In this document: in pieces, positions 11,475 to 64,000 of the stretch | Layout: each line of letters starts with the position of its first letter | How positions within the stretch are numbered: the stretch's first letter is position 1 | Assembly (NCBI GenBank): GCA_963377175.1 | Contig: CAUJNA010001226.1 | Location: 1-64,000 of the forward strand | From: Effrenium voratum | Taxonomy: Eukaryota > Sar > Dinophyceae > Suessiales > Symbiodiniaceae | Direction of reading: 5' to 3' | DNA: 64,000 bases | The notes under the pieces: model-generated | Databases searched by the model: none | Told to the model about the DNA's origin: nothing | Seen by the model: the letters and a program-made list of their open reading frames with translations, nothing else | Made by a program: the position numbers and the translations under genes

Positions 11475-14400
11475 GAGCGGAAGAGGACCGTGAGCTGCTC
11501 GGGCTCCTTCTTCTACCCCGAGATGACCCGCCGCGGACGCCGCCCCGCGGGCTGGCAGCCCGCTCTGGCCGACGCGGGGGTGGACTTCTCTGGCCTGCCG
11601 ACGGACCGCCCCGTGAACTTCGACGACATCGAGGCCTTCGAGCTCCGCAACGCCGGGCGGGTGGAGGTCTTCGTCTTCGTGTGGCAGCAGACCCAGTGGA
11701 CGGACGGGCTGGAGTACTACCACGTCCTCCAGCAGCGCGCCCCGAGCGGCACGGGCGTCGTCCGGCACACCGTGCTGCTTCTCCTGCACAGCGGCCACAC
11801 AGCCTGATCCACAACTTCCAGGCGCTGGTCAGCAGGCGGGGGCTGACCCTGGGAGCCACGCCCACCAACACCGGCGGCTGCGCGGAGTACAAGTGCCCGA
11901 GGTGCATGGCCCGCTTCGCCACGAAGGCCTCCTGGCAGCGGCACCGCGCCACCCAGTGCTATCGAGAGATAGCCGAGCGCACTCGGAAAGTGCCGCTGCC
12001 CGGGCCCGAGAAGAGCCTGCTGCGCTACAGGGGCAAGGCCTCCGCAGAGCTTGCGCCCCTCACGTGCTACGCGGACCTCGAGGTCTACAGCACGCCCGCC
12101 CCGACGGTCCACATAGAGCCGGCGCGCCAGACCGTCGCGGCTTCTTCCTGCTACGTCGCTGTCGGGCGCTGCGGCTACGTGCCACCCGAGGAGCTGAGGC
12201 TGAGGCTCACGCACCACGAGCGGGACAGCACGCCGTCCGCACCATGCTGAACGACCTTCTCAAGCTGCCCGACCACTACCTCACCTGGAGACGCCGAACT
12301 CGGCCCGTCAGCATGACCCGGAGGGAGGAGCTGGAGCATGCAGGGAGCGCCTCGCGTCCTTCGAGACCGCTGAGAAGAAGCTCCACCACTGCCACGGCAC
12401 CGGGCAGTATCTCGGGGCGCTGTGCCACTCCTGCAACATCGCGGCCCAGACGCCCAAGACCATCCCAGTGGTCTTTCACAACGGGGGCGGCTACGACTTC
12501 CACTTCCTGCTGCGCTACATCGCCACGATGGGCTCTCCTGTCAGCAGGGCACCGCGCGAAGAGCTCGGCGAGAGAGCGATCAAGAAGGAAGCGAGTCCGA
12601 GAGGCCCATGCCCATGGCCAAGGCTGCACCAAAGCCAAAGGCCGCACCCAAGGGCAGGGCCAAGGCCGCGCCAAGGCCCCTCGGCGGCTGGTGCGCCCTG
12701 CAGGCCGCGATCAAGCAGGGCGGGGGCCCGCTGAGGTTCGTGGAACTGCTACGACAGCGTGCTGGCAGGAAAAGCGGTGAGCGCAGAGGACCACCGGCTG
12801 GCCGTCAACACCGCCTATCTCATGGTGGGAGACCTTCCGCGAGTTCCACGACTGCTACCTCCACACCGACGTCCTGGCCCTGGCGGACGTGATGGAGAGC
12901 TACCGGGACTCCTTCCGGGCGCAGTCGGGGCTCGACCCCATCCACTACGTCACGCTGGCCGCCTGGGACGCCATGCTGCGGCACTCGGCTTGCGAGACTC
13001 CCATTCACCTCATCACCGACGAGCAGGCCTACAAGGACGTGCGGTCCTCCGTCATGGGTGGGCTCGCTCAAGCAAACAACCCCGAGCTGGGCGAGGAGGA
13101 CTACAACCCCGAGGAGCCCGTCAGCTGCATCTCGTACTTGGAATTCAACGCCATGTACCCGGCCGCAATGACGCTGCCCATGCCCAACGGCCCCTGCGCG
13201 ACGGTCGCCCTGCCAGAAGAAAACGCCGCTAGGCTGAGCTGGCTGCACGAGACGTGCCTCTCGGGGCTGAACTGGGAGTCCGACTCCGAGGAGGTGAGCT
13301 ACCTGCTCCTCGTGGACTACGACTTCCCCCCGGAGCAGCATGACCACTTCTTGGACTGGTCGGGAAGGCCTGTACGGGCCGCACACCGCGGACATGGCGG
13401 AGCGCCTCGGCCTCTCCCCGTCGCCCTGCGAGCTCAAGTTGCCAGGGTCTGGAGGCTGCACAGGGCCTACCGCTTCGCCTGCAGCCCCTTCATGGCGGGC
13501 TTCATGGAGCTCAAGCACAGCGAGCGGAGGCAGCTCAAGACGGCGGGGAGCGTGGTTGGCGAGAAGGTGGTGAAGCTCACCCAGAACGCCATCTTCGGCC
13601 GCTGCTGCATGAACCCCGACAAGTTCAGGAACACGAACGCCTACGTGGACCCAGCCAAGTTCGAGCGGGCCGTGGGCAAGAGCTCCGTGACGAACTTCGA
13701 GCTCCAGATCAACGACTCGGAGGGGTTCCTGGCCTTCGTGGAGACGCTCAAGACGGACCGCAGCAAGGCCTGCATGAGCGTGCCCACCCAAGTCGGCGCC
13801 CGCACGCTGCAGCTCTCCAAGCTCATGATGGAGAAGGCCTACTACCTCCACATGAGGAGGCTCTTCCCGAAGATGAGGCTGCTCTTCACGGACACCGACT
13901 CCGTGATGGTGCAGATCTTCGAGCTGCAGGACCCGCTCCACGCCATGGCCGAGGCGAACCTGAACGGCGCCGCCCTCTTCGACGTGGCCGGCAAGTCCAA
14001 GGACCCCGAGAGGGACCTGAGCGCGCTCTCTGCAGCGGCGCGCGCCAAGGCCATCGAGGTGATGGGCCAGCTGGGCAAGCTCGGCGACGAGACCTTCCCC
14101 GCCAGGATCCTGGAGTACGTGGGCCTGCGCTCCAAGATGTACAGCATCCTCACGGTCCAGCCCGACGGCGCGCGCAAGGAGAAGCGCAAGATCAAGGGCG
14201 TGCCGAAGAAGGCGGTGACCAACGTCCGGCAGCTCGAGTACCGGGAGGTGCTGGAGGAAGGCAGCGAGCGCAGGGCGGCCTTCGCGCAGCTGCGCAGCCG
14301 CGCGCACGAGATCGCCGTGGAGACCGTCGAGAAGAAGTCCCTCTCGCCCTTCAACGACAAGGTCTACGGCCTCGACGCTCACAACTCGCGGCCGCTGGGG

Positions 14401-14553
14401 CACTGGCGCAACCTGGAGCAGCTGCGGATGCTGGGCGCTTACGCTCCGCCAGGCTCCGCGCCCTTCGACCTCGTGATGGAGTTCCTCGTGGGGCCCCCGC
14501 CTCTGGGGCCCGCTCCGACACTGCCGCTGCGGCTGAGCCGCTGCTGGGCGTAG
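11475..14553 (+). pseudogene. Viral family B DNA polymerase, copy 1 (broken)
   Basis: This is a protein-primed-type PolB (DNA_pol_B_2-like) of a PLV. It is N-terminally cut by the LINE: it starts at the SCSGSFFYPE segment and lacks about 230 residues present in copy 3. Present are the C2H2-like finger CPRCMARF...H, exonuclease motif I (YADLEVYST), exonuclease motif II (FHNGGGYDFH), palm motif A (LEFNAMYPAAM), motif B region (KLTQNAIFGR), motif C (FTDTDSVM) and the C-terminal RSKMYSIL...GVPKKAVTN region. Frameshifts lie near 11795 and 12230. Internal deletions near 12590-12760 and around 13360-13440 remove part of the linker and the thumb-like region. The palm half from 12889 to the stop at 14553 is a single open frame. 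It cannot encode a full enzyme. Confidence 0.85.
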
Positions 14554-14565
14554 ACTGTCGGAACC

Positions 14566-14633
14566 GGAAAAAAAGATCCCGAGCTCTCGTTTTCTCGCTT
14601 TCTCGATAATGAGATCCGCCGCAGCTGCTCAAG
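14566..14633 (+). promoter_or_regulatory. Leader, type 1, before coiled-coil gene a (copy 1)
   Basis: An A-run is followed by GATCCCGAGCTCTCG, a CTCG-rich pyrimidine stretch and GCCGCAGCTGCTCAA directly before ATG. The same layout precedes four other family members, so it is probably a promoter or 5' UTR. This is inference from conservation only. Confidence 0.45.
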
Positions 14634-15029
14634 ATGACTTCCTCAGCGGCCTTCCGATGCGTGCAGGCATGGCTTCTGGAGAAGCCCGCCGCGTGGGCGG
14701 ACGAGGACGCTCCCTGCCTTGCGGCTGCTCTGATGGCCCAGCGGCCTCCCTGCGACATGCTACGCAAGCGGCCTCGCGAGGACGCGCTGCTTGAGGCCGA
14801 GCGCTCGCACCAGCGGCATCTCATCGCGCGGCTCGACGAGGAGCTCCTCGATGAAACCCTGCGCTGTGTGGAGCGGGAGCGCGAGAACAGAAATCTCCGC
14901 CGGCGGGTGGACGGCCTCAACAATCTCATCGACAGAGAGCGCGAGCGAGCTAGGGCTGGAGCCAGCAACAGAATTCTCCGCCAGCGGGTGGCGCACCTCG
15001 GCGAGATCCTCGTGCGAGCGCACAGATGA
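14634..15029 (+). CDS. Coiled-coil family protein, type a (copy 1)
   Basis: The function is unknown. The 131-residue protein has a conserved N-terminal domain of about 40 residues (MTSSAAFRCVQAWLLEKPAA...CLAAALMAQRPP). A charged, arginine- and glutamate-rich coiled coil with leucine heptads follows to the end. It lies directly behind a PolB copy, as do the other members of this family, and is preceded by a conserved leader. The ATG is fixed by alignment with seven relatives in this window (15116, 26603, 27218, 27696, 44604, 45079, 45535). I do not recognise the N-terminal domain. A structural, scaffold or DNA-binding multimer is possible but not shown. Confidence 0.6.
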   Translation: MTSSAAFRCVQAWLLEKPAAWADEDAPCLAAALMAQRPPCDMLRKRPREDALLEAERSHQRHLIARLDEELLDETLRCVERERENRNLRRRVDGLNNLIDRERERARAGASNRILRQRVAHLGEILVRAHR

Positions 15030-15047
15030 GCTCGAGGACGCGCAAGC

Positions 15048-15115
15048 AAAAAAAAGATCCCGAGCTCTCGTTTTTCTCGCTTTCTCGATGATTCGATCCG
15101 CCGCAGCTGCTCAAA
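15048..15115 (+). promoter_or_regulatory. Leader, type 1, before coiled-coil gene b (copy 1)
   Basis: It has the same elements as the leader at 14566: an A-run, GATCCCGAGCTCTCG, a CTCG-rich tract and GCCGCAGCTGCTCAA before ATG. Confidence 0.4.
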
Positions 15116-15420
15116 ATGACTTCCTCGGCGGCCTTCCGATGCGTGCAGGCATGGCTTCTGGAGAAGCCCGCCGCGTGGGTGGGCGATGACACTCCCAGCC
15201 TTGTGGCCGCTCTGATGGCCCAGCGGCCTCCCTACATGCGGCCTCGCAGGATGCACTGCTCCAGGCCGAGCGTCTGTACTACCGGCGTCTCATCGCGGGC
15301 CTTTGTGGGGAGCTCCGCGCTGAAACAGCGCGCGGTGAGGAGCGGGAGCGCGAGAAGATAATTCTCCGCAGGCAGCTGGAGCGCAGCTACGATCTCGGTG
15401 AGCGAGATCTAGCGGAACTG
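15116..15420 (+). pseudogene. Coiled-coil family protein, type b (copy 1), truncated
   Basis: The N-terminal family domain (AFRCVQAWLLEKPAAW) is intact. A frameshift near 15235 shifts the rest. The displaced frame still reads a b-type coiled coil (QLERSYDLGERDLAELL), which matches the copy at 45079. Family similarity ends at about 15420, where unrelated sequence leading to a retroelement fragment begins, so the gene is both frameshifted and 3'-truncated. Confidence 0.6.
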
Positions 15421-15635
15421 CTTTTTTTGTCACCCGCACGCCTTGAGGCAATTGCCATCGGTCGTGAAAACCAAGTAAAAGTACAGAGAGAAGAGATGTG
15501 AAACGCAAGGTGAGACATCACTGGAAAAACCGGCGAAAAAGACACAACAGTCAACAGAGGGACCAAAAAACAAACAACCAAAGAGAACAGCAGAATCACG
15601 TGGACATCAATCCACCCCACATTTACTCCACGTGA

Positions 15636-16903
15636 CTACAAGTCACTCAGTCTCTCGCCCGTCAATGGGCACATTGCGCTCGCTCTCTGAGCCTGCAACT
15701 CTTTAACGAGTCCATCAAGTTTGGAACGAGACGGCTCGTCTGCGGCGTTGGAAGGAGACGGCACTTGGGTAAACCAGTACCAAGTCTGACCTTGCAGCTC
15801 GTCCCTCTCAAAGGACAACAGGAGTTGGCGAAAAATCGGGGAACGCGTCCATTGCAGCATAATTATCAACAAAGTACAGGCAATGTTTGCCAACAAGCTG
15901 CGTATGCCACAAGTGACGGGCCAGCACCACTCCATACAGTTCCACGGGTCCTATGATATGTTTCATCTCTACTTGCCACTGCTTGACAAGAGTATCCGGC
16001 ACATTACAGGCAAAGAACTCAACCACGTCAAGATCCCTGTTTATCAAGAATCCACCAACGGTGTTAGAGTCGCCTTCACTTGCACCGTCAGTGAAGATGA
16101 GAATCGGAGGTGGGCCATCACTGCAAGAAACGGTCCTAGGCTCCCCTGAACCCAGGCGTTCGGCAAGCAAGGCGAGGGAAGCAATCAATCTTTGATGGCC
16201 CATGATTCCTCTTCACAGCTTCTCTGATAGACGTCATTGCAAGGCGACCCACACGGCCCATGATCTGCCCATCGGCATACTGGATACGACCCAGAAGGCG
16301 GCTGCACGTAGAAGGGTTAAGCTGGCGGCTCTGAACGACCTCATCAATCATGCTGAGGGTTTCCCGGACTCTTCCAGGCTTGTTTCTAACCAACACACTC
16401 AAGTCATCGGTGCAAGACAAGTCAAGTTCGACCCCCAACACAGCTGCACGCTCACTGAAAGCTGCTAGCTTGTGTTCAGCGTACACAAATCCCAGCAGCC
16501 TCATCAGAGTGATCATGCAGGAGGTGGACGACTCTGCTAGTGCCGACACACTGATCACGGGGAAATCATCAAAGTAGTTCCCCCACAGAAGATCAAGTTC
16601 AAACCCAACCCTCTGCAAAAGCCTAGACACACGGTTGAAGTTCACAACACTGGAAGTGGCACCAAAGGGGAGAACTCTCCCCTCAAAGCAAGCAGTCGCA
16701 CCATTGCTAGGGTTCTTCAGCGTCACAATGGAATACTTCCTGCTATCGGGATGAAGTGCAAGTTGCTTGTAAGCCGAAGACAAATCAAGCACACTGACCA
16801 AAGGCTTGCTGTTGTCGGCATCTTGGAGCGACGAGTGCAACGGCCCTCTCAACACTTCACCCGAAGCAAGTTGCAGGCAAACCTCACCTCTGACACGAGA
16901 CAT
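15636..16903 (-). pseudogene. Degraded retroelement RT-RNase H fragment (DIRS/LTR-like)
   Basis: Read on the minus strand, the RT has VLDLSSAYKQL (motif A), PFGATSSVVNFNRV (motif B-like) and NYFDDFPVI (YxDD motif C). An RNase H domain follows, with FTDGASEGDS and YFVDNYAAM, and a C-terminal segment SPSNAADEPSR. Frameshifts near 16195 and 15860 put RT, RNase H and the tail into three frames. The fragment has no gag, protease or integrase. It stops at about 16930, where a dispersed repeat begins. The RT differs from the LINE RT at 2-5 kb. The exact superfamily is uncertain. Confidence 0.7.
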
Positions 16904-16931
16904 GCGAACGATCGCGGCACAACACCAAAAG

Positions 16932-17615
16932 TAGTAAGGAATGTCTGCTTATACTACCCTAATTCTTGGGCATTTTTGGTCCCAAAATCCGCTAAAACAG
17001 CCAAATTTTCAACCCGCTGAACTTGTCACCAGCGAAGTCACCGCTTCGTCACCGCTCCGTTTTGGGTGCAAAAAGCGCTGAAAACGGCGAACTCCGAAAA
17101 GTGCGTTTTTTCGTGTCCGGCGTCAAAAGTGCAGCCCGGGCCTCAAATTCGCTCGTTTTCCTCCGAAAACCGGCTCCAGGTGTTCGCCATGCTCCGAAAT
17201 CCGCATTCTGCCTCGAAAAACCTGCGAATTCCAGCCCGCTGAGCTTGTCACTCACCGGTCTCTAACACGTCAGCCCGCCGAGGCACAGCCCAGAGTCAGC
17301 CAGCGTCTGACGCGGCAGCCCGCCGAGGTGCTTCCGAGTAACACGTCAGCCCGCCGAGGTTCTTCCACGTAACGCGTCAGCCCGCTGAACTCGTCACCGC
17401 CGATGTCACCGGTCTCTAACACGTCAGCCCGCCGAGGTCCCGGGAGGAATCGAGCCTCCGAAACGTCGCTGCGGAGAGCAACGCCTAAACCATCTCACCA
17501 CGGGCTCTCGCTACCTGTCCAAAACGGCGCTTTTTGGCCCAAAAACGGTCATCAACGATGTCACCGCTTCGTCACCGCTGGGGCCGAAAAGTGCGCAAAA
17601 GGCTTGGAAAAGCGA
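16932..17615 (+). repeat. Dispersed 0.7-kb repeat, copy 1
   Basis: It starts with AGTAGTAAGGAA and ends after GTGCGCAAAAGGCTTGG. It is similar over its length to 28305-29067. Inside are four or five imperfect direct repeats of GTCAGCCCGCCGAGG and nearby GTCACCGCCGATGTCACC. No ORF in it is convincing. Confidence 0.65.
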
Positions 17616-18039
17616 GTTTGTGTACTGGTAGCGCGGGAATTCGAATTGAGGGATATTTTCCCTCAATGCATCAACGCATTCCAGCCATCCAAGCCGTTCC
17701 TAAAAAGGTCTCGGGCTCGATTCCTCCCGGGTCCGCCCCTGATCACCCTAAGAGCAATGGTGGTGATTCATCAATGGTTCATGAATGGGCAAGGTTGGTT
17801 CATGAATGGGCAAGGTTGGCTCAGGTCTCGTCATGTGGCCGAGGTGTCCCAAGCGTTTTTTGACCGACATTTTCGGCCAATTCATCGCCTCATGCCCAGA
17901 GTCCGATCTTATAGGACACTGCGCCACTTCGCGTGCGAGTCGATATACAATCAGAACACCCGGCGAATAGCGACTCAAGGTGTTGCGAAAGTGCGATGCC
18001 CCAGCGATACCATTTCGTAACGTCTACTCCTAAGAAAAC
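17616..18039 (+). other. Non-coding spacer before fiber gene
   Basis: No supported gene is seen. A 22-base sequence with GTTCATGAATGGGCAAG is directly duplicated at about 17777 and 17799. Confidence 0.4.
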
Positions 18040-20891
18040 ATGTTTGAAGGACCTGTCACGGGCAACATCCCCGAGGTCCTGGACAACGGAGAGGTGACTG
18101 ACGGCACGCACGTCACAGCAGGACAGCTGGCCCTCGCTCTGACTCCCTACGCTCAAGTGACTGACCTGGCGGTGAACACGGCAGCCTCAGGCAACAACGC
18201 CGCTGCCATCCAGTCCCAGGACGACCGAGTCACCGCCGAGCTGGCCTCAAAGCTGGACAGCAGCGCGCTGGCGCCGGCGATTGCGCCCCTAGCAACGGCT
18301 GCGGCCCTGGCCACCACGGACGGTCAGGCGGCCGCGCACGGAAGCAGCATCGCAGCGCTGCAGAGCTCGCTGACCACGGGTCTCTCCAACAAGGCAGACC
18401 AGTCGGCCTTCGACGTGCTGGAGGGCGTGGTTGCCACCAAGAGCACACCCGACTCAGTGGACCTGAAGCTGTCCAACTACAGCACCACGGCGGCCATGAA
18501 CGGCTCCATCGCCTCGGCCAACAACGCCACGCTGGCCACGGTGGCCGCCAACTACGGCCTCAGACGGTGGTGGACCAGCACTCCCTAGACATAGCGGCGA
18601 GGATCACGCCGCTGGAGGTGGACACCAAGGTGGCCAACGCTCTCCTGGGGGCCGTCACCGCCGCGGCGCTGGCCTCCGAGCTCGCGAGCCGAGACGCCTC
18701 CATCTCGGGGCTGCAGGCCTCCAAGGCAGACGCCAGCGCCCTGACTGCTTACGCCCTGCAGTCGGCCGTGGACACTTCCTCGGAGGTGGACTCTAAGATA
18801 GCGACGGCCCTCTTGGACGCCGTCACCACGGCAGCCCTGGACGCCGCCCTCCTCGGCAAGGCGGACGCAAGCGCGCTGGCCTCCCTGCTCTCCACGGTGG
18901 ACGGGTTGGACACGCCGCTGGAGGTAGACACCAAGATAGCAAATGCCCTGCTGGGTCTCGCCACCGAGGCCTTCGTCGCAGCGCAGCTTGCTAGCCGGAC
19001 GCCAGCATCACGGCGCTCCAGGGGGCCAAGGCCGACGCGACGCTGCTGGCCTCGTACGCCACGAACGCCGCGCTCTCAGCCAGCGAAGCCACGCTCCAGA
19101 GCGCCCTCGACGCAATCCTCGCGGAGCTCGCCGCCCTGCAGCTTTCCGGCAGCGGCGGAGTTGTTAACGCGCCGGCCTGGGCGGGCTTCACAACTTGGGA
19201 GCTCGTTCGCGGAAGCAACGTCGTTCGCAACCTGCATCTGGAGGCTCCTCTCTCTGCTGCGCTGGCCAACGGCGACGACACGCTGAGCATCACGGCAGAC
19301 TGCTACTCCACGGCGGGCACTGACGCCGCCATAACAGCAGCCCTGCTGGCCTACTACACCTCGGCTCAGGTAGACGCGCTGTTGGGAGACTACCGCACAG
19401 GGGCAGCGCAGGACGCTGAGACGACCAGCGCCATCACAGCAGCGCTGCTGGCCTACTACACCTCGGCGCAGGTAGACGCGCTGTTGGGAGACTACCGCAC
19501 GGCAAGCGCGCAGGACACGCAGACGCAGGCAGCCATCGCGGGCGCGCTGCTGGCCTACCGGACGGGCCCGGACCAGGACGTCTTCACAACCATCCAAATC
19601 ACCTCGGCGCTGGTGGCGTACCGCTCAGCCGCAGACCAGGACACGGCGACGGCCTCGAGCATCGCCACCGCGCTGCTCAGCTACTACACCATCGCGCAAG
19701 TAGACGGCCTCCTCGCCGGCAAGCTCGGAGTCGCGGAGGCAGCCTCGGCGCTGCAGATAGCAGTGCGCTTTCCGGACGACGGCGGGGCCGACGAGGTGGT
19801 GGCCGCCAGAGCAGATCCTGGCCCCCACGGACGTCTCGCTGTCAAACTGGACGGTTCGCCCCAGCAGCGGCTGCAGCGTGGTCTTGGCCACGCACACCGC
19901 GGGCGCAGTGAGCGTGGACGGCTACACCCTGACCCTGGCGGTGAACCCATGGAACATCGTGCGCACCTACAACTTGACCCCGGGCCGAGAGCTCCTCTTC
20001 GCCTGCCGCTACCGGCTCGGCACGGCCTCCAACTTCGTGGTGTACATGTCCGAGGCAGACAACGTCTACGACCCCTTGTACGGCAGCTTCGTGGGCGACC
20101 AGGGTGCCTGGAGCACTGCCAAGATGTACTTCACAGTGCCTCCGAACGGGGTGGCGAAGCTGCACTTCGGGGCGCACTTCCAGGCGCCGGGCCTGCCCAA
20201 CCAGACGGCTGGAACGGTGGACGTCTACGGCATCCAGATCCTGGACGCAACCCTGGAGACCGGCAACGCGGTGGAGGCGGAGGAGGACACAGCGGCCTCA
20301 GCGCTGCTGCTGAAGCACGAGTTCCTCGACGGAGGGGCCGACGACGTCACGCTGGCCACCCTGGGCGAGGTGCTGCTGGAGCCCACGCTCACCACGCTAG
20401 GCAATTTCCTGGTGCGCTCCAACAGCCAGAGCTCCGTGGCCTCGGCCAGCTTCACGGTGGGAGGCTTCCAGCTGGAGGGCTACGCCATGACCCTGAGCGC
20501 CTTCGCCTGGAACATCGTGCGCACCTACACGCTGACGCCGGGGAGACGCTACTCCTTCGGCTGCCGGTACAGGCTGGGCACGGCCTCCAACTTGGTGATG
20601 TACGTCAGCGCGGCCGACAACGACTACGTGGGCGTCACCGGCACCTTCCTCGGCACGGCCTCGCAGGGCGTCTGGAGCACGGCGCGCCTGGACGTCTCGG
20701 TGCCGCCGGGCGGAATCGCGAAGCTGCACTTCGGAGCCTTCGGCGGCTCTATCCCCGGGCTGGTGCAGCAGTCGGCGGGCACGCTGGACCTGTACAGCAT
20801 GCAGATCAGGGCCAGCGCCTTCGAGGGAGAGTCTGTCTCAGTAACGGACCTGCTGGCGGACTCGCTGGCCGGGAGAGATGCTGGGCCTTGA
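18040..20891 (+). pseudogene. Viral fiber-like protein (frameshifted)
   Basis: This is a long repetitive protein of about 950 residues, split over frames by three one-base shifts near 18560, 18997 and 19810. The N-terminal half is Ala-rich with repeats such as LEVDTKVANALLGAV and ITAALLAYYTSAQVDALL. The repeats resemble the YTIEEVDALIL element of the block B fiber at 53806. The C-terminal half has two tandem, clearly related beta-rich modules, each with NIVRTY(N/T)LTPGR...CRYRLGTASN...VMY and PP(N/G)G(V/I)AKLHFGA. These resemble carbohydrate-binding jelly rolls and would be receptor-binding knobs. The ATG at 18040 begins MFEGPVTGNIPEV. No S74 chaperone domain is present, unlike in block B. 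The gene lies upstream of the C5-MTase-like gene of copy 2. Confidence 0.6.
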
Positions 20892-21293
20892 GCATGTTGA
20901 TCTTGTTTCCTGACAGGCTTTGATCCCAGCCAGCAAACGCCCCAAGGCCCTATTGGTTTGTTGTAGGACTCCGCAATTGCTCACTTTGATTGACAGGTGG
21001 AGCCGGCTCCAAAGCCGAAGCACGAGCCCCCGATCTACAGCAAGGCCGCTCATGTCATGACACAGTGTTTGCATTTTTTTGCACGTAATCCACAGTTTGC
21101 CCCAGGGGGAGTGATGCTCCTCATGAACTGGACCTGCGTGAGGCTCCTGTTTTGTTGTGAGTTTTTTTGTCAGCATGTACTCTCTTGACATGCCACCGGC
21201 GCAGGATGGACAGGTGTGAGCGAGGCGACGTCGAGCCGCTCTGCTGTGAAAACAGCGGTCGGGACCTGGGGAGAGAGGGGGTGGGGCGGGAGG
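20892..21293. other. Non-coding spacer
   Basis: I see no supported gene or RNA here between the fiber gene and the hairpin cluster. Confidence 0.35.
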
Positions 21294-21960: not shown

Positions 21961-21993
21961 CCGAGAAGGATTTTATAAGAAATGATCCTCGCT

Positions 21994-22643
21994 TCAGTCC
22001 GGGATGCTCAGCCGATCCGCAAGCTCTGCCGTGGCCGCGCTCGCAATCTCCTCGCACAGCGCCGTAGGAATGCTGTAAAGCAGCTCGCGCGACTGCCCTC
22101 TGACCCTCTCGCGCCGGCCCCCCATGAGTCGAGGCCCCCCTTGGGCGCCCCTCAGATGCCTCCCGTCTTCCCACGCATCGCACCGGCTGCCGCTCCTGCA
22201 CAGCCCTCGGCTCGCATGTTGGTCCACAGCCGAGTCTGCTTCCTGTACGGAGTCCCGTACTTGCAGTAGGTAACGTCCACCCAGGGTAGGCGCTCCATGA
22301 ACGGTCGGGTCTTCAGCAGCCCGGTGGCCGGATTCTCGATGACCCACATGAGCGGGTCGAAGTGCGCCATGATCTCAAGGGCTCTGAGCACCAGCACGTC
22401 GCCCTCCTCGAGTCGTCGAGGGCGCATCGTCACAGCTCGGCTGTACTCCGTGCAGACCGGGCTGGCCCAGACCATGTCAAAGTGCCCCGGCGGAAACGTC
22501 GTGTAGTCCCAGCTCCGGATGTCGCACAGGATCGTGGGCTCAAATTTCGACACGATGTCCAAGGAAACGACCTCCCACCCTGCCGCCTCGAAGGCTCGGC
22601 CCATCGACTTTGTGCCGCAAAACAGCTCCAGCAGTCTCGGCAT
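21994..22643 (-). pseudogene. C5-cytosine methyltransferase-like protein (copy 2)
   Basis: This is a small SAM-dependent methyltransferase-like protein. From the ATG at 22643 it reads [20 protein letters not shown] (motif I), [22 protein letters not shown] (motif IV-like, with Cys) and WVIENPATGLL (motif VI). Such short forms occur in phages and large algal viruses. The first 150 residues are open. Compared with the copy at 38159, ten bases are missing near 22205, which shifts the frame and ends the ORF at 22152 rather than at the homologous stop at 21994. It is divergent from the SSB-like gene. Confidence 0.65.
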
Positions 22644-22748
22644 GTTTAATAACCACCACCAGCACAACGAAGCACGCACAGGCGACGACGCGGCTCAAGC
22701 AGTTTCGCATGCTCGGACCAATCTTTTTTTAATCGGAGACAGAAAAGG
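22644..22748. promoter_or_regulatory. Divergent intergenic region, MTase-like / SSB-like
   Basis: This short gap separates two divergent start codons. It contains CAATCTTTTTTTAATCGG close to the right-hand ATG and is conserved at 38812-38916, so a bidirectional promoter is likely. Confidence 0.35.
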
Positions 22749-23279
22749 ATGACGATCCAGACAAGCATGTGGAACTTGGGCGAGGTGCGCTCCAATGCTA
22801 AGGGTGGCAAATTCTTGTGCCTGGAGCCGCTGTTTTGGCAGAGCGAAGCTTCGCTGGAAATCCCCTGGGAGCCCAGGGCTTTCTCCGAGGGGCAGCGCCC
22901 CAGTGTGAGCTTCGCAACCGACGAGCGCACGAGGCTCTTCTGGGAGCGGGCCGAGACCGATCTGGTCGAGCAGCTGGCGGCCGCATCCGAGCGCGTCTTC
23001 GACGCAAAGCTCACGCCCGAGGCTGTGCGCCAGCGGCTGCTGCCCTCTGTGAGGCAATCGAGCGGCGGCGATTGGATGCTGAAAGCCAAGCTGCCGGCCC
23101 ACGCGCGCTTCTGGAACGCCGGCGGCACGTTTGCGGACCGCCCCGCTGAGCTGGCTCACTGCGCCGCGCGCGTTAGGCTGAGAGCGCGCAGCTTGTGGCT
23201 GATGAGCGGCATGCGCGGGTTGAGTCTTGAGGTCACAGATCTGCGCGTGGAGCCACCTTCTCGAGAGTGCCCGCTGTAG
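22749..23279 (+). CDS. Putative single-stranded DNA-binding protein (copy 2)
   Basis: This intact protein has 176 residues. The C-terminal third (FWNAGGTFADRP, then VRLRARSLWLMSG and LSLEVTDLRVE) resembles the last strands of OB-fold SSBs of the gp2.5/viral type. In those proteins an 'R-x-LW' strand is followed by a 'G-S/L-x-x-x-V-x-x-L-x-V' strand. The assignment is by eye and moderate. Its place between the C5-MTase-like gene and PolB, and the well-kept copy at 38917 differing at few residues, suggest a replication role. Confidence 0.45.
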   Translation: MTIQTSMWNLGEVRSNAKGGKFLCLEPLFWQSEASLEIPWEPRAFSEGQRPSVSFATDERTRLFWERAETDLVEQLAAASERVFDAKLTPEAVRQRLLPSVRQSSGGDWMLKAKLPAHARFWNAGGTFADRPAELAHCAARVRLRARSLWLMSGMRGLSLEVTDLRVEPPSRECPL

Positions 23280-23326
23280 TTTCTTCCGATGCCGCAGCCT
23301 TTTTTTGCTCAGTAAAAAAATTCAGA

Positions 23327-23929
23327 ATGGCCACCCACGTCCTGGAGCGCCGCGAGCAGCTGAGGCCTCTGCTGAGGGCCGCCGTCGATGCCGAGGCGCT
23401 GAAGCGGGGAGCCTCTCTGGAGGAGGTGAGCCGCCTGCATGATGAGCTCACTCGGGGAGAGCCCGTGCTGGAGCGGCTGCTGGCTGACGGGGTCGCCGGC
23501 AGGTTCCCGGCGGAGGAGGTCGACATGCAGGACTGGAGGGACATGCTGAAGCGCTCCCAAGAGCTTCGGCTCAAGCTTCGCAAGCGCCTCAACCAGCGCA
23601 CGGCCCGCTGCTCCGCTCCCGCGGGGGCCGAGGAGCGCCAGGAGGAGAGCTGCGAGACGCTCCGCGAGAAGCGCGAGGCCCTGAGGCAGCGCCGCACTTG
23701 CACGAGCGACATCGCCTCGCTGGCCCAGATCGAGAGAGAGCTCTACGAGGTGGAGGAGCAGCTCGTCAGCAAGAAGATCGCTGAGCGGCTGCCGGTCTCG
23801 CTGGCGGCCAAGAGCGCAACCCTCGCAGCCTTGGAGCGGGTTGAGAAGGCGCGCAAGGAGCTGGACGAGGCCTCCAGTGAGCTCCTCACTGCGCTGAACC
23901 TGCAGGGCAGCAGCACCGACTCGCTGTGA
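23327..23929 (+). CDS. Coiled-coil protein upstream of polymerase (copy 2)
   Basis: This intact 200-residue protein begins MATHVLERREQLRP. It is almost wholly helical and charged. Probable coiled coils lie at about residues 25-95 and 110-190, with LAQIERELYEVEEQL as a clear heptad stretch. No catalytic motif is recognised. It sits between the SSB-like gene and PolB in both copies. By position it could be a polymerase accessory or terminal-protein candidate, but nothing in the sequence proves that. Confidence 0.55.
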   Translation: MATHVLERREQLRPLLRAAVDAEALKRGASLEEVSRLHDELTRGEPVLERLLADGVAGRFPAEEVDMQDWRDMLKRSQELRLKLRKRLNQRTARCSAPAGAEERQEESCETLREKREALRQRRTCTSDIASLAQIERELYEVEEQLVSKKIAERLPVSLAAKSATLAALERVEKARKELDEASSELLTALNLQGSSTDSL

Positions 23930-23999
23930 ATAGAATCCGGGACAGAACAGAAGCCAGGACAGAACGTGACAGAAAAAAGAAGCGCTCGTCCGACCGACT

Positions 24000-24040: not shown

Positions 24041-24058
24041 CTCAAACCAATTCGCGCC

Positions 24059-26509: not shown

Positions 26510-26519
26510 ACTGTCGGAA

Positions 26520-27082: not shown

Positions 27083-27131
27083 GCGCGTTGATGAGCTTGA
27101 GGAGGATTTGGACAGGGCAAGGGGACCGCGC

Positions 27132-53805: not shown

Positions 53806-55932
53806 TTATTTTGACTTGTCTTTTTTCTTTTTCTTTTTAAAAACTTCATTTTCCAAATACTCTACACGATCGATTAGTTTTGATAAAGCATCCCAACTAA
53901 TACAAGCCATACGATCATAACACATCGTTAAGTATTCTCCCGAATCATTTACAATATTATATTTCGGATTTGTGTATTGTTGAACATCTTGAGCAATCCA
54001 TCCTAATTCAGTTTTTCTGGTTTTTTGATTCTTAACAAATGTTTTAATCTTAATGTTTTTTACCATATTTACAGTATCATCTTCTACATCTTCTATATTA
54101 TCTTTCAGTCTCTTATCGCTACTTAAATTAAATCCGTTAAATGATGAAAATTGAGTATCATCCAATTGTAAATATTTAGTGCCATCAATATAACTATCAA
54201 TAGTTGTTGATGCTTCTAATCTTAAAACAGCATCACTATTTAAATGTCTCAAATTGATTTTATGAGCAATTCCAAAAGTCATATCGCCGTCAATAGTCCA
54301 ATCGCCTCGCAATTCGCTATTGCTTCCACTATTCAAAATAATTTTATTATCAGCATATGTTGCAGATAATCCAACAACCAAATTAATAGAGTTTGAAGTG
54401 TTGCTATTCCTAATTATTAAATCATTTGTATCGACATACATTTCAGCATTATCAATTATTAGTTTTGATGTGTTGCCAAATTGAACATTGCCACTCGGTG
54501 AATTTTGTAATAATAAAGTATTTCCTGATACAGACTGAACTTGATTGACTTCAATCTTTTTACCAGAAACCATTGTTAAATCGCCATTTGTATATACATC
54601 ACCTAATACATCAACTGGTTTATTGAATATGGTTTTTGATACAGCACCGTCGCACATAAAATATTGATTAGAAGAATTAGTAATATCGCCAACACTAACA
54701 GCAACAAAATTATTATGCGCCATATATAAACCTTCTGTAGCATCTGGTGTATATCTTCGTATTGAACCATTATTATTAAAATTTAAATATGAACCATTGT
54801 TAAGACTTATTGCACTGTCTGTTCCTATAAACTGGACAGCGCTTGTAAATCGAGCTTGCCCAGCACAATTTAAAACATAATTAACAACGCCAACTGCCCC
54901 TAAACCGAATCGATCTTTTATCCATACACGACCAACATTAGCATCTCCGATTTGCGTTTCCCAAACGCCTCCTGAGCTTGACATCCACATTCTACCATCT
55001 CTATTAATATTAAATTCACGATTAAACATTTGAAAAGTCATTTGTAGTCCTAAATTTGGTGAAGGGGTACAGCTAAACTTATTACATATTATAGAACCAG
55101 TAGTAAGCATGTTTAAATCACTGTGTAAAGTTGCATTATCGCTAAAATTAATAGCACCTGCTACTGATTGAGCGTTAGTATCTATTTTATCTAACTTTTG
55201 TAAATCTGCTGATATTAAACTATTTATTGTGTTTGAATTTTGAGTTATTAATACATCTTGTATATTATTATCTGATATAATTGAAGCAAATGTATTACTG
55301 TAAGCAGTGTTAGTATTGAATAAATTAGTATCGTTTGTATATAATGTTGATACATCTGCTTGAATAGTTGTTTTTTCAGCTGTAGTCCAAGAAGCGCCCG
55401 CTCCTGCTTGTAAATCTGCTATATCTGTAAGAATGGTTGTTATTGTGTTTCCGTGTCCTGTTATGTTATTAATGTTTGTGTCAATTAATGATATATGCGA
55501 TGTTATTGTAGCATTTAAATTACTGATTAAATGTGTATTCGAACTAATGTTATTAAAATTAGAATCAAGTTTAATTGTATTTGCTGATATAGTCGGTAGT
55601 ATTGAAGTTATGGTTAATCCGTGTGCTGTTATATTATTAAAGTTGCTTGTAATTGTTGCGTTTTGATTTACTTGTTCATTAAACATAGTTGTTGATGTTG
55701 CGTTTAATTCAGTAATATCTAAAATATTGGCATCTATCTTATTTTTCTGTGCTAAAATAAGAGCATCAACTTCTTCAATTGTATAACCTCCACCTAATGA
55801 TCCTGCTGTGTCTGCTAATTCTTGTTTTGTAGCATAAACACTGCTTAATGTTGATGGTTCTGTTGAATTTATTAATACTAATTCACTTGCTACAATTCTA
55901 CTTGAGCCGTCCAATGATAATGTTGAAAACAT
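53806..55932 (-). CDS. Fiber/spike protein with S74 intramolecular chaperone
   Basis: This is an intact 708-residue protein. The N-terminus (MFSTLSLDGSSRIVASELVL) is followed by YTIEEVDALIL and long helical repeats rich in N-I/L-T (residues about 50-280). A beta-rich middle follows. At about 600-700 lies a peptidase S74/ICA domain with SSDKRLKDNIEDVED, the Ser-Asp catalytic pair context, and ELGWIAQDVQQY. The protein ends in a Lys tail. S74 domains trimerise phage and viral fibers and then cleave themselves off. It is probably the receptor-binding fiber at the vertices. It is related by its VDAL repeats to the block A fiber at 18040, which lacks the S74 end. Confidence 0.8.
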   Translation of the reverse strand: MFSTLSLDGSSRIVASELVLINSTEPSTLSSVYATKQELADTAGSLGGGYTIEEVDALILAQKNKIDANILDITELNATSTTMFNEQVNQNATITSNFNNITAHGLTITSILPTISANTIKLDSNFNNISSNTHLISNLNATITSHISLIDTNINNITGHGNTITTILTDIADLQAGAGASWTTAEKTTIQADVSTLYTNDTNLFNTNTAYSNTFASIISDNNIQDVLITQNSNTINSLISADLQKLDKIDTNAQSVAGAINFSDNATLHSDLNMLTTGSIICNKFSCTPSPNLGLQMTFQMFNREFNINRDGRMWMSSSGGVWETQIGDANVGRVWIKDRFGLGAVGVVNYVLNCAGQARFTSAVQFIGTDSAISLNNGSYLNFNNNGSIRRYTPDATEGLYMAHNNFVAVSVGDITNSSNQYFMCDGAVSKTIFNKPVDVLGDVYTNGDLTMVSGKKIEVNQVQSVSGNTLLLQNSPSGNVQFGNTSKLIIDNAEMYVDTNDLIIRNSNTSNSINLVVGLSATYADNKIILNSGSNSELRGDWTIDGDMTFGIAHKINLRHLNSDAVLRLEASTTIDSYIDGTKYLQLDDTQFSSFNGFNLSSDKRLKDNIEDVEDDTVNMVKNIKIKTFVKNQKTRKTELGWIAQDVQQYTNPKYNIVNDSGEYLTMCYDRMACISWDALSKLIDRVEYLENEVFKKKKKKDKSK

Positions 55933-56678: not shown

Positions 56679-57533
56679 TTAGTTATCTAATTGAAAGAGA
56701 ATGCTAAAAGAAATGGGAACGCCGTGAAAATCAATTAATTCGTTTCTTGAAGTTGTTATTCTAAAGTGTAGTCTCTTAATATTTTTACCGCCTACATCAA
56801 TAAAATCTGCATATATGGGCGCTGTAAAATCTGTTATAACTCCGCCAAGTTGTTGATTAATTTGAACTTTTTTAATTACTGAACTGCTGAAATTATTAGG
56901 CGCTGAATATTTATAATCGCTTAATTGAGGACAATTTATGTATATATTCTGAAAGGGAACTAAATTAAAGTATCCACTTAACCAAGATGACGCAGGATCA
57001 TAGGCAATATAATTACTTAATAAATAATTAATAGATTTTGGTCTTAAATTGTCATATTCAAACTGTCCTCTGTTCCATTCGCCATTTACATAAGTTTCTA
57101 ATTCTTCATCTGTAGGTATTTTGATTTTGTAAGTTAGAGGGTCATTTAATTTAAGTTCCATTTTGCGTTCGCTTTGTCCATATACTGTTAAGAATAAGTC
57201 AGGCACAATATCATTAAATGCCGTGTTTAATTCCGTTTGTATTTTGTATGATAATTGATTAGCATAATAAATTTCACCGGATACATCAACGGCAGTGCTT
57301 CTCAATAAGACATTGGAACTATTATACAACATAATATAGAAGCGTTCGTAAAACCCTTTCTCTGTTGTATAAAACGGAGTGCTGAATGAACACTCTGTCA
57401 CGAACATTTTTGTTCTTGGTGGAATTTCAAAGTTTTGGTCAAGTTCTATAATAAAATCGCTGGTAGAATTACTTTCTTGCAATCTGTAGGCACTATCAAC
57501 ATAGATTTTTTTATATGTTAATCTGTCACTCAT
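56679..57533 (-). CDS. Minor capsid (penton-type) protein, block B
   Basis: This intact protein of about 284 residues starts at ATG 57533 (MSDRLTYKKIYVDSAYR). An upstream in-frame ATG at 57548 is less likely. It has SDFIIELDQNFEIPP, YINCPQLSDY, VGGKNIKRLHFRITTSRNE and the end FSILFQLDN. This is the pattern of PLV and virophage penton proteins, and it aligns with 32380-33135. It would form the pentameric vertices of the capsid together with the major capsid at 58687. Confidence 0.75.
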   Translation of the reverse strand: MSDRLTYKKIYVDSAYRLQESNSTSDFIIELDQNFEIPPRTKMFVTECSFSTPFYTTEKGFYERFYIMLYNSSNVLLRSTAVDVSGEIYYANQLSYKIQTELNTAFNDIVPDLFLTVYGQSERKMELKLNDPLTYKIKIPTDEELETYVNGEWNRGQFEYDNLRPKSINYLLSNYIAYDPASSWLSGYFNLVPFQNIYINCPQLSDYKYSAPNNFSSSVIKKVQINQQLGGVITDFTAPIYADFIDVGGKNIKRLHFRITTSRNELIDFHGVPISFSILFQLDN

Positions 57534-57635
57534 AAATATAATATACAATAGAAATTATAATATAATTATTATTGATAATTACTTTGTAATTATAATTATT
57601 CATAGATATTTTAATAAAATATCTATGAATAATAT

Positions 57636-58417
57636 ATGATAGGAAGACAATTATTATTAGGTGCTATAGAAGGCAGGACGCCTACGCAAATGATGGCAGG
57701 CGTAGCAAGTGATAAAGCATATACTGCAGGTAAGGATTTAATAGAAGATGTATTTTTTAACCATAAAAAGAAATTGGAAGACAAAGTAGGAGGTTTCAAT
57801 AAACATTTTGATAAGCAGATAATGAAACATAAAACACGATATGCTGAAGAAATTAATGTTCAAAATAAAAATAAAATTGATGATGTTAAAGGGTTAGATG
57901 CCGCGTATTCAAATATAAATGGAATAACAAGAATAGGCAACACTTTATATATTGGTGGTACTGGTGCTAAAACGGGACTAAATCACAAAGTCAATGATGT
58001 AATTGCAGATTTGTTTTTTATTCCTACTCATAATGTTCAATTAAGCGAAAGATATAAAGACGCAATGGAAGAATTAAGGAAAAATCCAGATGTTAATAGA
58101 CTGGTCGGCCATTCCCTCGGCTCATCCGTTGTTCAAGAAATTAACAATAGACACGGAAACAAATATGCTACTACTGTTTATTCATCACCTTTTGTATCAG
58201 GAACTAACCAGCAGAAAAACCCGCGACACTACGATTTAGAAATCGTGGAGATCCTATAGCAATGTTCGATGACGCGGCAATAACTGGAGAAATAGAAAGC
58301 AATAATTTATTAGACAAACACAGTTTCAATAATTGGGAAGGAAATGGACTCACAAGTATAAATCCTACTACTGATATTTCTAATGGGTTTAATCCTAATT
58401 CAACACCAGAACAATAA
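57636..58417 (+). pseudogene. Lipase-like alpha/beta hydrolase, one frameshift
   Basis: It starts MIGRQLLLGAIEGRTP. The core has TRIGNTLYIGGTGAK, a helix, then NRLVGHSLGSSVVQEI with the GxSxG nucleophile Ser, and YSSPFVSG, as in class 3 lipases. One base is missing near 58230. The first frame ends at 58259, while the expected continuation (RFRNRGDPIAMFDDA, then a short tail to 58417) lies in the next frame and should hold the acid and perhaps His of the triad. Lipases of this kind occur in some PLVs and may help cross membranes. Confidence 0.65.
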
Positions 58418-58686: not shown

Positions 58687-60270
58687 ATGGATAATATAAT
58701 CGCCGAATCAGAAACTACAATGATTAACTCGCTAAATTTTGGACTTCCAGAAACAGCACAATATATCACAGACCGACGACACGTTAATTATTTTCCATCG
58801 GGTAGTAATGTTTATAATCCAAATTCAGGAAACAAAAATATTAGATTTCATATAACAGGTGAAGACAACACATATATTGATTTATCTTCTATTCGTTTAT
58901 TTGCCAATCTTCAAAACACAGACGGAACACGAAGTCATTTTTTACGCCCGTTAGGTAATTTATCATCCTTCTTCAGTCGTTATAGATGCAATGTAGGCGG
59001 ACAACAAGTTCAGGATATTATTGAATACAATAGGCACTGTGAATTGTATAATTCCTTTAAAAGTCAAGATGCTAGAGATATGGACGATTTAGAAGGTGGT
59101 GCCAATCCTCGGTGGGATGATGACTGGCGACATACTTATGCTACTGGATTAGCAGAATTTGTTGATGTCAATACACGAACCAATCCCACTGCCTCCCCTG
59201 AGGCAGTTGGAGTTTCAACTACAAAAGACCATAACAATTGGGGAGACTTAACATCGCGATATACTCGCCATTCAGTAGCAGGAATTCCCGGCGCTAATAG
59301 TTATATGAGATTAGGACATAAACCAGTATGCGGACTGTTAGAAAGCAATTATTATTTACCTCTTCGTTATGCTCCACTTGAACTGGAATTTACAATTGTA
59401 TCAGATGAACATATACCAGTAGTTACGCCTTTTACCGTAACTGATGTCAACACTCAAAATGATGCCAAAGGTTATTATTTCACAACTGGAGACACCTCAA
59501 CACAGTGGGAATTGAATAACGTAATCATTAGAGCCGAGGTAATACAATTGGACAACACGGTTAACAATAATATAGTGAAACATTTGTTAGAAGGTCAAAG
59601 TTTAAAATTAGTATTTCCAATGTATCACACTATGACACAATCATTCAACGCGGGAGGAAATGAAATTAATATGAACATTGTTAAATCCGCTTCTAAATTA
59701 AATGGTTGCTTCATTACATTGTATCGTGCACCAAGAGCAGGTGTAGATGCTGATAATAATAATTACTACAGACACGATAATTATATTTACAAGCGATGGA
59801 ACTACTTTTACAATCCTATGATTAATTCTCGTATTTTTGATGGTCCTAATCCAGATGGCGCTGATCGTGAGCGATTCCAAGGTAAAGGCTTTCAAGATAA
59901 AGATTTAAATTTAACGTGGCAATTACAAATTAACAATAAGAAATATCCAGAGTTTGAATGCCAGAGCCTCGCCGAGAGTGCCTACTACCTCCGAAGAACA
60001 TTACACTATTTGAACCCTGACCAAGACGCCTTTAGCATTTCATATAAACGCTACAGAGAAGACAAGTTCGTTATTGGGATTTCATTTGAAAAGATGGCGG
60101 ACACTAATTTTACAGGCCAGAATACGAAACAAGGAGGCTTACTCGTTTTTAAACTAAAAGGAAGTAACAGAGCACTGACAGATAATGAAGATGTGCGAGA
60201 ATTATTTGTGCATATGATTTCGGAGTCTGTTCTGGAATTACGCGAATCCGGAAGTCTGCTCTATGATTAA
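58687..60270 (+). CDS. Major capsid protein, double jelly roll (block B)
   Basis: This intact 527-residue protein has an N-terminal region with TAQYITDRRHVNYFPSGSN, IRLFANLQNTD and LSSFFSRYRCNVGGQ. The C-terminal region has SAYYLRRTLHYLNPDQDAF, FVIGISFEKM and the end FVHMISESVLELRESGSLLYD. The length and pattern fit the double-jelly-roll capsid proteins of PLVs. Its block A homologue (35366) confirms the conserved N- and C-terminal blocks. It heads a plus-strand run of six genes that likely encode virion proteins. Confidence 0.85.
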   Translation: MDNIIAESETTMINSLNFGLPETAQYITDRRHVNYFPSGSNVYNPNSGNKNIRFHITGEDNTYIDLSSIRLFANLQNTDGTRSHFLRPLGNLSSFFSRYRCNVGGQQVQDIIEYNRHCELYNSFKSQDARDMDDLEGGANPRWDDDWRHTYATGLAEFVDVNTRTNPTASPEAVGVSTTKDHNNWGDLTSRYTRHSVAGIPGANSYMRLGHKPVCGLLESNYYLPLRYAPLELEFTIVSDEHIPVVTPFTVTDVNTQNDAKGYYFTTGDTSTQWELNNVIIRAEVIQLDNTVNNNIVKHLLEGQSLKLVFPMYHTMTQSFNAGGNEINMNIVKSASKLNGCFITLYRAPRAGVDADNNNYYRHDNYIYKRWNYFYNPMINSRIFDGPNPDGADRERFQGKGFQDKDLNLTWQLQINNKKYPEFECQSLAESAYYLRRTLHYLNPDQDAFSISYKRYREDKFVIGISFEKMADTNFTGQNTKQGGLLVFKLKGSNRALTDNEDVRELFVHMISESVLELRESGSLLYD

Positions 60271-63030: not shown

Positions 63031-63060
63031 ATTATTATATTATATTAAATTAGAATATCT

Positions 63061-63825
63061 TTATTCATCATTTGTAATTTGAAATGCCTGTTCAAAATTG
63101 ATATGAAACATGTTGTTAATGTCTTTTGAATTCATATTCACGTAGAAAAAAGAATATGGAGCAAAATTAACGGCTTGATGATACATATCTAATAATTGAT
63201 GTTTGTCAACAATGGCGCTATTTTCTTCAATAAAACTCATTAATTCACTGGCATTTTTCAACCTAAAAATATATAATGAACTGGCATTTAAACGAATGAT
63301 AGGCGCCAACACATTATATTTCTGTGTTGAACAAATTACGCTTATTGCATCGTGCCTACCTCTTGTAAATAATCCATGTAATAATTTACTATATCTAACA
63401 AATTTAGGATCGTCGGCGTGATCGTCTATAACGATTAATATTGAATGTAGATTCTTTATCTTTTTAGATTTCATATAATTAATTATTTTCTTCTGTCTTT
63501 CAATTACATTTTCTAAATCACTTGGATTATAATTATCAAAATAAATTTGTTCTTTTTCATCATCCACGTGCAATTCATCCCTGATATATTTTTTAACTTC
63601 TGTAAAGGTTGGGTCATTATGAACGCTGGGGGAAAATATAAATATTCTTGCAAATGAATTTCTATAAACATTTAAGATAAGGTTCTGAACCAAGACTGTT
63701 TTGCCACCTGTCGAACTCGCAACTATAATACTTCTAAACGGTAATTTTGGCACGTGCTCATATTTAGATTGTTTGAATTCATATTCAGTTATGTTTATTG
63801 GCTTTATTATTGGAACATCTGACAT
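63061..63825 (-). CDS. A32/FtsK-HerA-type genome packaging ATPase (block B)
   Basis: This intact 254-residue protein has Walker A VASSTGGKTVL, RIFIFSPSVHND, Walker B ILIVIDDHADD, a VICSTQKYN sensor-like segment and the end HINFEQAFQITNDE. It is the enzyme that pumps viral DNA into the capsid in polintons, virophages and giant viruses. It is homologous to the block A protein at 31427 with the same motif order. It is one of the four core PLV genes found here. Confidence 0.85.
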   Translation of the reverse strand: MSDVPIIKPINITEYEFKQSKYEHVPKLPFRSIIVASSTGGKTVLVQNLILNVYRNSFARIFIFSPSVHNDPTFTEVKKYIRDELHVDDEKEQIYFDNYNPSDLENVIERQKKIINYMKSKKIKNLHSILIVIDDHADDPKFVRYSKLLHGLFTRGRHDAISVICSTQKYNVLAPIIRLNASSLYIFRLKNASELMSFIEENSAIVDKHQLLDMYHQAVNFAPYSFFYVNMNSKDINNMFHINFEQAFQITNDE

Positions 63826-63877
63826 AATAAAATAATATTAAAGTTATTTAGAAAATATTTTATATTTATTATTTTAT

Positions 63878-64000
63878 ATGAATAGAAGCTATTCGGATTA
63901 TATCAATATAATAGATGAAGTAGAGAATATAGAACAAGTTGTTATAACTGATAATAGATGTAAAAAAATATGTTATTTTATTTTAGAATTAATTAAGTTT
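63878..64000 (+). CDS. Partial ORF at right edge
   Basis: It begins MNRSYSDYINIIDEVENIEQ and is open to the window end with no stop. It is divergent from the ATPase (53 AT-rich bases between). 41 codons are visible; no family is recognisable. Confidence 0.4.
   Translation, partial: MNRSYSDYINIIDEVENIEQVVITDNRCKKICYFILELIKF

Follow-up and report, generated by a model that had tools for sequence, protein, structure and literature searches.

Many polinton-like viruses (PLVs) can lie in one protist genome, and retrotransposons can be nested in PLVs or virophages, as the accessible parts of the relevant reports describe (PMC10120064, PMC12220804, PMC12747079, PMC11071308, PMC11071213, PMC8547959, PMC12721341). 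Endogenous PLVs of protists account for thousands of capsid genes per genome (2,535 in Polarella), of several capsid types, according to the portion available of one survey (PMC10120064). PLVs are known to be numerous in dinoflagellate genomes, and the nesting described in the texts at hand is that of retrotransposons inside PLVs; the literature searched, partly available and with subscription papers and supplements outside the search, described no PLV inside a PLV. Here we analyse 64,000 bases of the dinoflagellate Effrenium voratum (the window; C1226:1–64000, from a contig of 98,431 bases in an assembly of 1.156 Gb and 3699 contigs), in which a GC-rich block carries elements of one PLV family, A, and an AT-rich block an element of another, B. 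C-numbers such as C1226, C2347 and C288 denote contigs of this assembly, L094 a contig of IMG/VR, and + and − the forward and reverse strands. Our reading, to which we give a probability of about 0.86, is that A and B are two amplified families of integrating PLVs, and that B entered the integrase gene of an A element that had integrated before it.

Insertion of a B element in the integrase gene of an A element

The B element comprises contig positions 46333–66489 (20,157 bases) and extends past the window end at 64000. It occupies the integrase gene of an A element that spans contig positions 28302–72680, of which 24,217 bases remain after subtraction of B and one duplication. The 3′ part of this integrase gene (46049–46332, −) is A sequence, cut short by B, and the remainder resumes at contig position 66490. 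An uninterrupted paralogue of the cut gene is present on the same contig as a single open frame (72688–73848). The left flank of B, 46049–46332, is 98.6% identical to contig 72688–72971, and the right flank, 66505–69850, is 91.8% identical to contig 72982–76298. The first-pass annotation had placed the two viruses side by side; B is instead nested in A.

B is bounded by inverted repeats of about 580 bp, the left one at 46333–46913 (+) with the terminus AGTTAGTGGTGG, and is flanked by a target duplication, GATTT at 46328–46332 and GATTC at contig 66490–66494, which match at four of five bases. In a genome search with the left B terminus 40 of 280 candidates were scored, and 30 of these 40 were read, giving 18 distinct insertions. 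The copies at these 18 insertions start with AGTTAGTGGTGG or a close variant, and among the 40 scored candidates there were many plus/minus pairs of termini on one contig, about 19–23 kb apart. Where the two ends of an insertion were both read, a 5-bp duplication was present at eight further distinct sites (C327, a repeat of C3475, is outside this count); at seven of them it was plain, and at C3024 it emerged once a repeated AGTT was allowed for.

The interrupted A element has ends of its own. Its left terminal inverted repeat (28302–28987, +) pairs with contig 72683–71995 reversed; with three flanking bases included (28299–28987), 651 of 695 columns are identical. The terminus is AGTAGTAAGG, and the ends lie at 28302 and contig 72680. 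When the genome was searched with this terminus, 36 of 41 rows began at query base 3 or 4, which is the start of the repeat.

A second contig, C2347, carries the same B-in-A junction and shares 8.5 kb across it at 98.65% identity. In a search with the A|B junction, two of the 40 scored matches covered the full length and 37 essentially one side, while C288 covered most of the junction at 85%. A junction of this kind might be an assembly chimera of two high-copy repeats, since A and B are repeated hundreds to a thousand times and such repeats are difficult to assemble, as noted in the accessible text of PMC10120064. However, a misjoin is unlikely to give an element terminus, a 5-bp duplication and consecutive gene halves at both ends, and the presence of the same junction on C2347 also speaks against it. 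C2347 departs from the window at position 53838, near the 3′ end of the B fibre gene, and a chimeric B at 53.84 kb was suspected from this departure. That suspicion was rejected: all of the scored matches (40/40) span the internal junction, and the arrangement in the window is the common one. We consider an assembly chimera very improbable.

The nested insertion can be pictured as follows. A linear B genome, with ends 5′-AGTTAGTGGTGG, would be joined by the B integrase to a 5-bp staggered cut; a cut inside the integrase gene of the integrated A element would split that gene and duplicate GATTT. The rve integrase probably carried out the insertion, B presumably arrived as virion or transposon DNA, and the insertion is likely to have disabled this A copy.

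Several observations weigh against so simple an account. The target duplication of the window copy is imperfect, as noted, and the two terminal repeats of B in the window align at about 80%, while the right-hand repeat on C2347 is 95.6% identical to the window's left repeat, so the insertion in the window is not pristine. On C2347 both the right half and the right-hand flank differ, which indicates that this region has recombined. The A element ends without a matching duplication (GACTT against GAGAG; one element tested, a rearranged copy), and the history of A is therefore not one of simple insertion. Finally, the double jelly-roll fold expected of the major capsid proteins (MCPs) found no credible match in Pfam or PDB, the best values being E 0.059 and E 0.35, to unrelated proteins.

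On C2347 (373552–377746), two B terminal repeats about 4 kb apart are followed by nearly identical flanks, a local duplication beside the recombined B.

Insertion targets, copy number and age

Four of the 18 distinct B insertions lie in A or A-like sequence: in the integrase gene (C1226/C2347), in the interval between the MCP gene and the C5-methyltransferase-like (C5-MTase-like) gene (C3125, both flanks), in the family B polymerase (PolB) gene (C3552), and adjoining an A-like capsid gene, at 47% (C1965). B could thus target A elements preferentially, or favour this one base of their integrase gene. Four of 18 exceeds an assumed A share of 2% or 5% of the genome (P 0.0004 and 0.011), but at an assumed 10% P is 0.098, and with the window excluded (3/17) the values become 0.004, 0.05 and 0.24 at assumed shares of 2, 5 and 10%. 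More insertions are accompanied by G/C runs. A run of at least six G/C within 40 bp was found at 12 of 26 flanks, compared with 71 of 884 control windows drawn along those flanks (Fisher P 5e-7, which is too small because both ends of one insertion were counted separately); by insertion the count is 9 of 18. The 26 flanks exclude four of 30, that of the window among them, because they repeat an insertion already counted.

A preference for the base itself draws on C288, where a second B-family element with another terminus lies at the identical base of another A. There the A integrase gene is cut at the same base as in the window by an element of about 21.6 kb, with a perfect GATTT duplication. 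The terminus of this intruder, of which only the element ends were read, is of the AGTTAGACTAGACC type, with the left end altered. The left A flank differs from that of the window at 2 of 150 bases, and the right flank is 94.9% identical to the paralogue. Other AGTTAGACTAGACC-type pairs show a 5-bp duplication (C1335, C860, C3035 and C3143), a six-base duplication (C3112) or one altered end (C2547). At least 7 of 13 such pairs enclose a B-type capsid among the matches listed (C3042, C436, C860, C1335, C3143, C3112 and C2524), so the AGTTAGACTAGACC type is apparently a sublineage of B with its own terminal repeat.

As an explanation, site-specific homing to the A integrase was tried by searching for two junctions, A|B and that of C288, and for a 31-mer that bridges the junction (up to three mismatches). 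The 31-mer matched only C1226, C2347 and C288. Because only these three places in the genome join the cut site to a B-like terminus, and the first two represent one event, homing into the A integrase is no general rule. We regard a preference of B for A elements or for this base as unlikely. Two independent insertions at one base of a 24-kb target are unlikely by chance, though the coincidence was searched for specifically, and the twice-hit base may be a weak hotspot. It is highly doubtful that B elements are hyperparasites of A that home to one base of their rival's integrase gene, with two B lineages of different terminal repeats arriving independently at the same GATTT in two A copies. If this were so, each B insertion at GATTT would cut the gene that would let A integrate.

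Copy number was estimated with capsid tags, 30-mers common to all ten sampled capsid genes of each family, with up to three mismatches allowed. The A tag had 1002 matches in the genome, the B tag 233 and the controls 0. Protein searches, in which the best candidates were scored, gave 102 A capsids at 89–100% identity and 82 B capsids at 93–100%; a stop codon was present in 7/102 and 5/82 respectively among the matches listed. Median capsid synonymous divergence (dS; ten copies each) was 0.115 for A and 0.200 for B, and the median ratio of nonsynonymous to synonymous divergence (dN/dS) was 0.125 for A (45 pairs) and 0.103 for B (42 of 45 pairs, with dS above 0.005); these ten copies per family were the top protein matches, so dN is biased downwards and conserved copies are favoured. 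The B copy in the window has two near-identical sisters among its ten (dS 0 and 0.003). Capsid dS therefore does not mark B as the younger family, and both families are amplified; the proposal that one was old and amplified and the other young found no support.

High copy number and the many broken frames of block A might also be met in two transposon families retained with a few captured virus genes. A capsid dN/dS near 0.1, albeit in a sample that favours conserved copies, and the presence of the relative L094 in a viral contig collection argue against this, and we regard mere transposon retention as unlikely.

Large tandem arrays of A were not supported, in a weak test: 77 of the 100 exact tag matches listed (of 1002) were alone on their contig in that list. 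Most capsid matches of A and B are nameless. One A capsid relative is labelled 'FV3-083R [Symbiodinium pilosum]', and a close A relative is labelled as an alphaproteobacterial metagenome-assembled genome. Some B capsid relatives carry names starting with Skav, which we take to denote S. kawagutii. The dinoflagellate spliced leader had 251 exact matches genome-wide, while its reversed control had 0; a cluster on C722 holds many of those listed. The leader and the names of these capsid relatives point to a dinoflagellate host, probably of the Symbiodiniaceae.

Gene content and kinship of the two families

Each block has an A32-type packaging ATPase, a C5-MTase-like gene, a penton-like protein, an MCP candidate and a fibre gene, as the first-pass annotation had proposed. 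By BLASTP, five A/B pairs are homologous: the ATPases (42%, E 2e-55), the C5-MTase-like proteins (44%, E 2e-26, with the A copy at 22152), the integrases (31%, E 9e-26), the MCPs (21%, E 4e-16) and the pentons (21%, E 6e-10). The A and B MCP profiles align over almost their full length (prob 99.8, E 4.8e-30). Between the families, BLASTP found no meaningful match for the fibres or for the replicases. On these protein comparisons, common ancestry is indicated for the capsid, penton, packaging ATPase, integrase and C5-MTase-like gene, while the replicases differ, and the view that one genome houses A and B as related yet separate lineages of a single virus group is supported.

Other parts of the earlier gene list stood only in part. 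An rve integrase had been assigned to both blocks; the two integrases are a homologous pair, with both rve scores under the Pfam cut-off (E 5.3e-5, 23.9 bits against a cut-off of 32.6, for the A paralogue; E 0.0067 for the first piece of the B gene), and the piece at 46049–46332 is A's. A family B polymerase holds for A, with DNA_pol_B_2 (PF03175) at E 6.6e-11, but B matched no polymerase family and its motifs were recognised by eye. The capsid candidates are homologous in the two blocks, without the double jelly-roll match, and both blocks have fibres, but the VDAL repeats claimed for them occur only twice in the A region and once in that of B.

The interrupted A element encodes a D12-class adenine methyltransferase (29404–30174, −; MethyltransfD12 E 7e-8), an A32-type packaging ATPase (31427–32371, +; Pox_A32 E 1.7e-11), a penton-like protein (31963–33135, +; the homologous part is about residues 135–386) and a candidate MCP (35280–36623, −), which is inverted in place and has profile homology to the B MCP. 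Its C5-MTase-like gene (38159–38644, −) repeats 22152 ff, and its PolB gene (40222–44508, +) is split over several frames, with DNA_pol_B_2 (PF03175) for 41114–44017 at E 9e-6, just under the cut-off. The inversion of the MCP gene has sharp ends, and the opposite orientation is found at contig 83527–84872, in nine sampled copies (L010–L018) and on C2347. Between the MCP and C5-MTase genes lie tandem repeats of CCGAGACGGATC (36648–38006); this array is also present in the second A copy on the contig. An open reading frame (ORF) at 30267–31472 has repeated cysteine-rich CEHGR...CRDCGG units (30878–31242) and no Pfam match.

B has a GC content of 33% (0.23–0.42 in 500-base windows). Its short C5-MTase-like ORF of 106 aa (47264–47584, −; phrog_363 E 4e-7) stops early, and by eye an Arg replaces the Cys of A, presumably in the catalytic motif; the copy on C2347 is identical there. 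The rve-type integrase (47616–48535, −) occupies two frames in the window copy and an uninterrupted frame on C2347. It is followed by a GIY-YIG-type endonuclease (48554–49237, −), which is 36% identical to an L094 ORF that is GIY-YIG (E 3.6e-7), matches a phrog homing endonuclease at E 1.6e-4 and has no Pfam match. The fibre (53806–55932, −) ends in a C-terminal Peptidase_S74 chaperone (E 7.9e-10). The penton-like protein (56679–57548, −) is homologous to the A penton and matched no named family, and a lipase/esterase-like ORF (57636–58259, +) is 33% identical to an L094 ORF weakly matching Esterase (E 0.0049). The candidate MCP (58687–60270, +) is homologous to the A MCP and to an L094 protein, and the A32-type packaging ATPase (63061–63825, −) matches Pox_A32 at E 4.4e-11 and the phrog terminase large subunit at 1.8e-12.

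The B replicase (1335 aa; 49293–53300, −) combines a polymerase-like N-terminal half, a superfamily 1 (SF1) helicase and an HNH/EndoVII-like C-terminal end. AAA_30 (E 2.8e-5) and UvrD_C_2 (E 0.0024) were matched under cut-off, the C-terminal end matched endonuclease VII at E 0.0021, and the family profile matched RecD at E 2.4e-5. Among 28 homologues, UvrD_C_2 and AAA_30 were each present in 21 (E up to 1), and PF03175 was not among the 25 of 28 Pfam families listed. The polymerase half matched no polymerase family in Pfam or PDB, and hhalign of the B replicase against an alignment of two A-type PolB sequences gave prob 0.2. By eye, its conserved stretches fit the Tlr1-like pPolB-SF1 helicase proteins, with a motif C that lacks the first Asp, and the N-terminal half is probably a polymerase. 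The replicases would thus be a polinton-type PolB in A and, in B, a Tlr1-type helicase fusion whose polymerase half is matched by no profile.

A search of IMG/VR with the B ATPase found one contig, L094 (17.4 kb, 1–17398; 32% GC). It carries relatives of the B ATPase (51%), MCP (29%) and penton (27%, E 2e-26), and also of the lipase, GIY-YIG and zinc-finger proteins of B. Its integrase passes the rve cut-off and is akin to both families (31% to A, E 3e-37; 37% to B, E 1e-31). No L094 ORF matches the B replicase profile, and a 1299-aa protein is related to the A PolB (E 2.6e-47). PF03175 was not listed for this protein in Pfam at E up to 0.01, so its identity as a polymerase rests on the match to A. 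Since L094 joins B-like virion genes to an A-like polymerase, capsid and replicase modules seem to have been exchanged within the virus group, as far as one contig can tell. Neither the A or B MCP (single or as an alignment) nor the A ATPase recovered a relative from IMG/VR, a search with the L094 MCP found L094 only, and the B ATPase had no match in a phage collection.

Block A (GC about 0.51–0.70) cannot be read as one virus, as had been supposed: it holds at least three rearranged A part-copies, a reverse transcriptase ORF (16136–16948, −; RVT_1 E 2.4e-9) and an element of the long interspersed nuclear element (LINE) type. The LINE-type retrotransposon (1–11475, −) has a reverse transcriptase and RNase H ORF (2006–5515; RVT_1 E 2.1e-10, RNase_H E 2.1e-5, just under the cut-off), an ORF at 5448–7178 for which no Pfam family was found, and an ORF at 7197–11474 with a C5 DNA methylase domain (DNA_methylase E 3.9e-9). 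C5 DNA methyltransferase domains have been reported in Symbiodinium retrotransposons. The LINE adjoins a first A-type PolB fragment (11476–15314, +), which repeats 24714 ff and 40923 ff and includes the PF03175 match above (12781–14553); homology to A starts at about 11465–11476. A further A-type terminal repeat (16930–17546, +) is 88.5% identical to 28302–28932 and has the same AGTAGTAAGG terminus. The A-type fibre gene (18034–20923, +), in more than one frame, has inverted copies at contig 68469–71371 and 74912–77236. An A part-copy (21970–28301) holds the C5-MTase-like gene (22152–22679, −; DNA_methylase E 1e-4), two ORFs, a gapped PolB, coiled-coil ORFs and the first 98 bp of the integrase 3′ part; its segment 21970–25473 is 92% identical to 38135–41673. 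No tRNA was found in the window, and Rfam gave no match at the gathering threshold.

Comparison with known systems

Because one PLV sits within another, and a paralogue of the broken gene survives uncut on the same contig, the two invasions can be placed in relative order. Nesting is one way in which PLVs can inactivate each other and meet for recombination, and L094 fits an exchange of replicases within one virus group.

A resembles the polintons/Mavericks in its PolB (PF03175), rve-type integrase, A32 ATPase, MCP and penton candidates and terminal inverted repeats starting AG. The 5-bp duplication of B differs from the 6 bp (PMC12747079) or 5–6 bp (PMC8547959) given for polintons in the parts of those papers at hand. 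B resembles the Tlr1-like PLVs (Tetrahymena Tlr1), with which it shares an rve-type integrase, a large SF1 helicase protein and a C-terminal HNH-like nuclease, but it differs in having a polymerase half matched by no profile and a dinoflagellate host. Tlr1-like proteins are described, in the available portion of PMC11071308, as carrying an SF1 helicase and ending in GIY-YIG or HNH, with a palm domain whose motif C lacks its first Asp.

The Oxyrrhis marina virus OmPLV is, like B, an AT-rich dinoflagellate PLV with a helicase-polymerase fusion and GIY-YIG. Going by the accessible text (PMC12721341), however, the helicase leads the fusion in OmPLV but comes second in B, and OmPLV encodes a tyrosine recombinase and makes no target duplication, whereas B encodes an rve-type integrase and duplicates 5 bp. 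The E. voratum genome resembles those with protist endogenous PLVs in its mass of capsid copies and several capsid types, going by what is available of PMC10120064. Where retrotransposons are nested in PLVs, PLV genes are cut, in one case an rve integrase gene, in the parts consulted of PMC12220804 and PMC12747079; here the intruder is itself a PLV.

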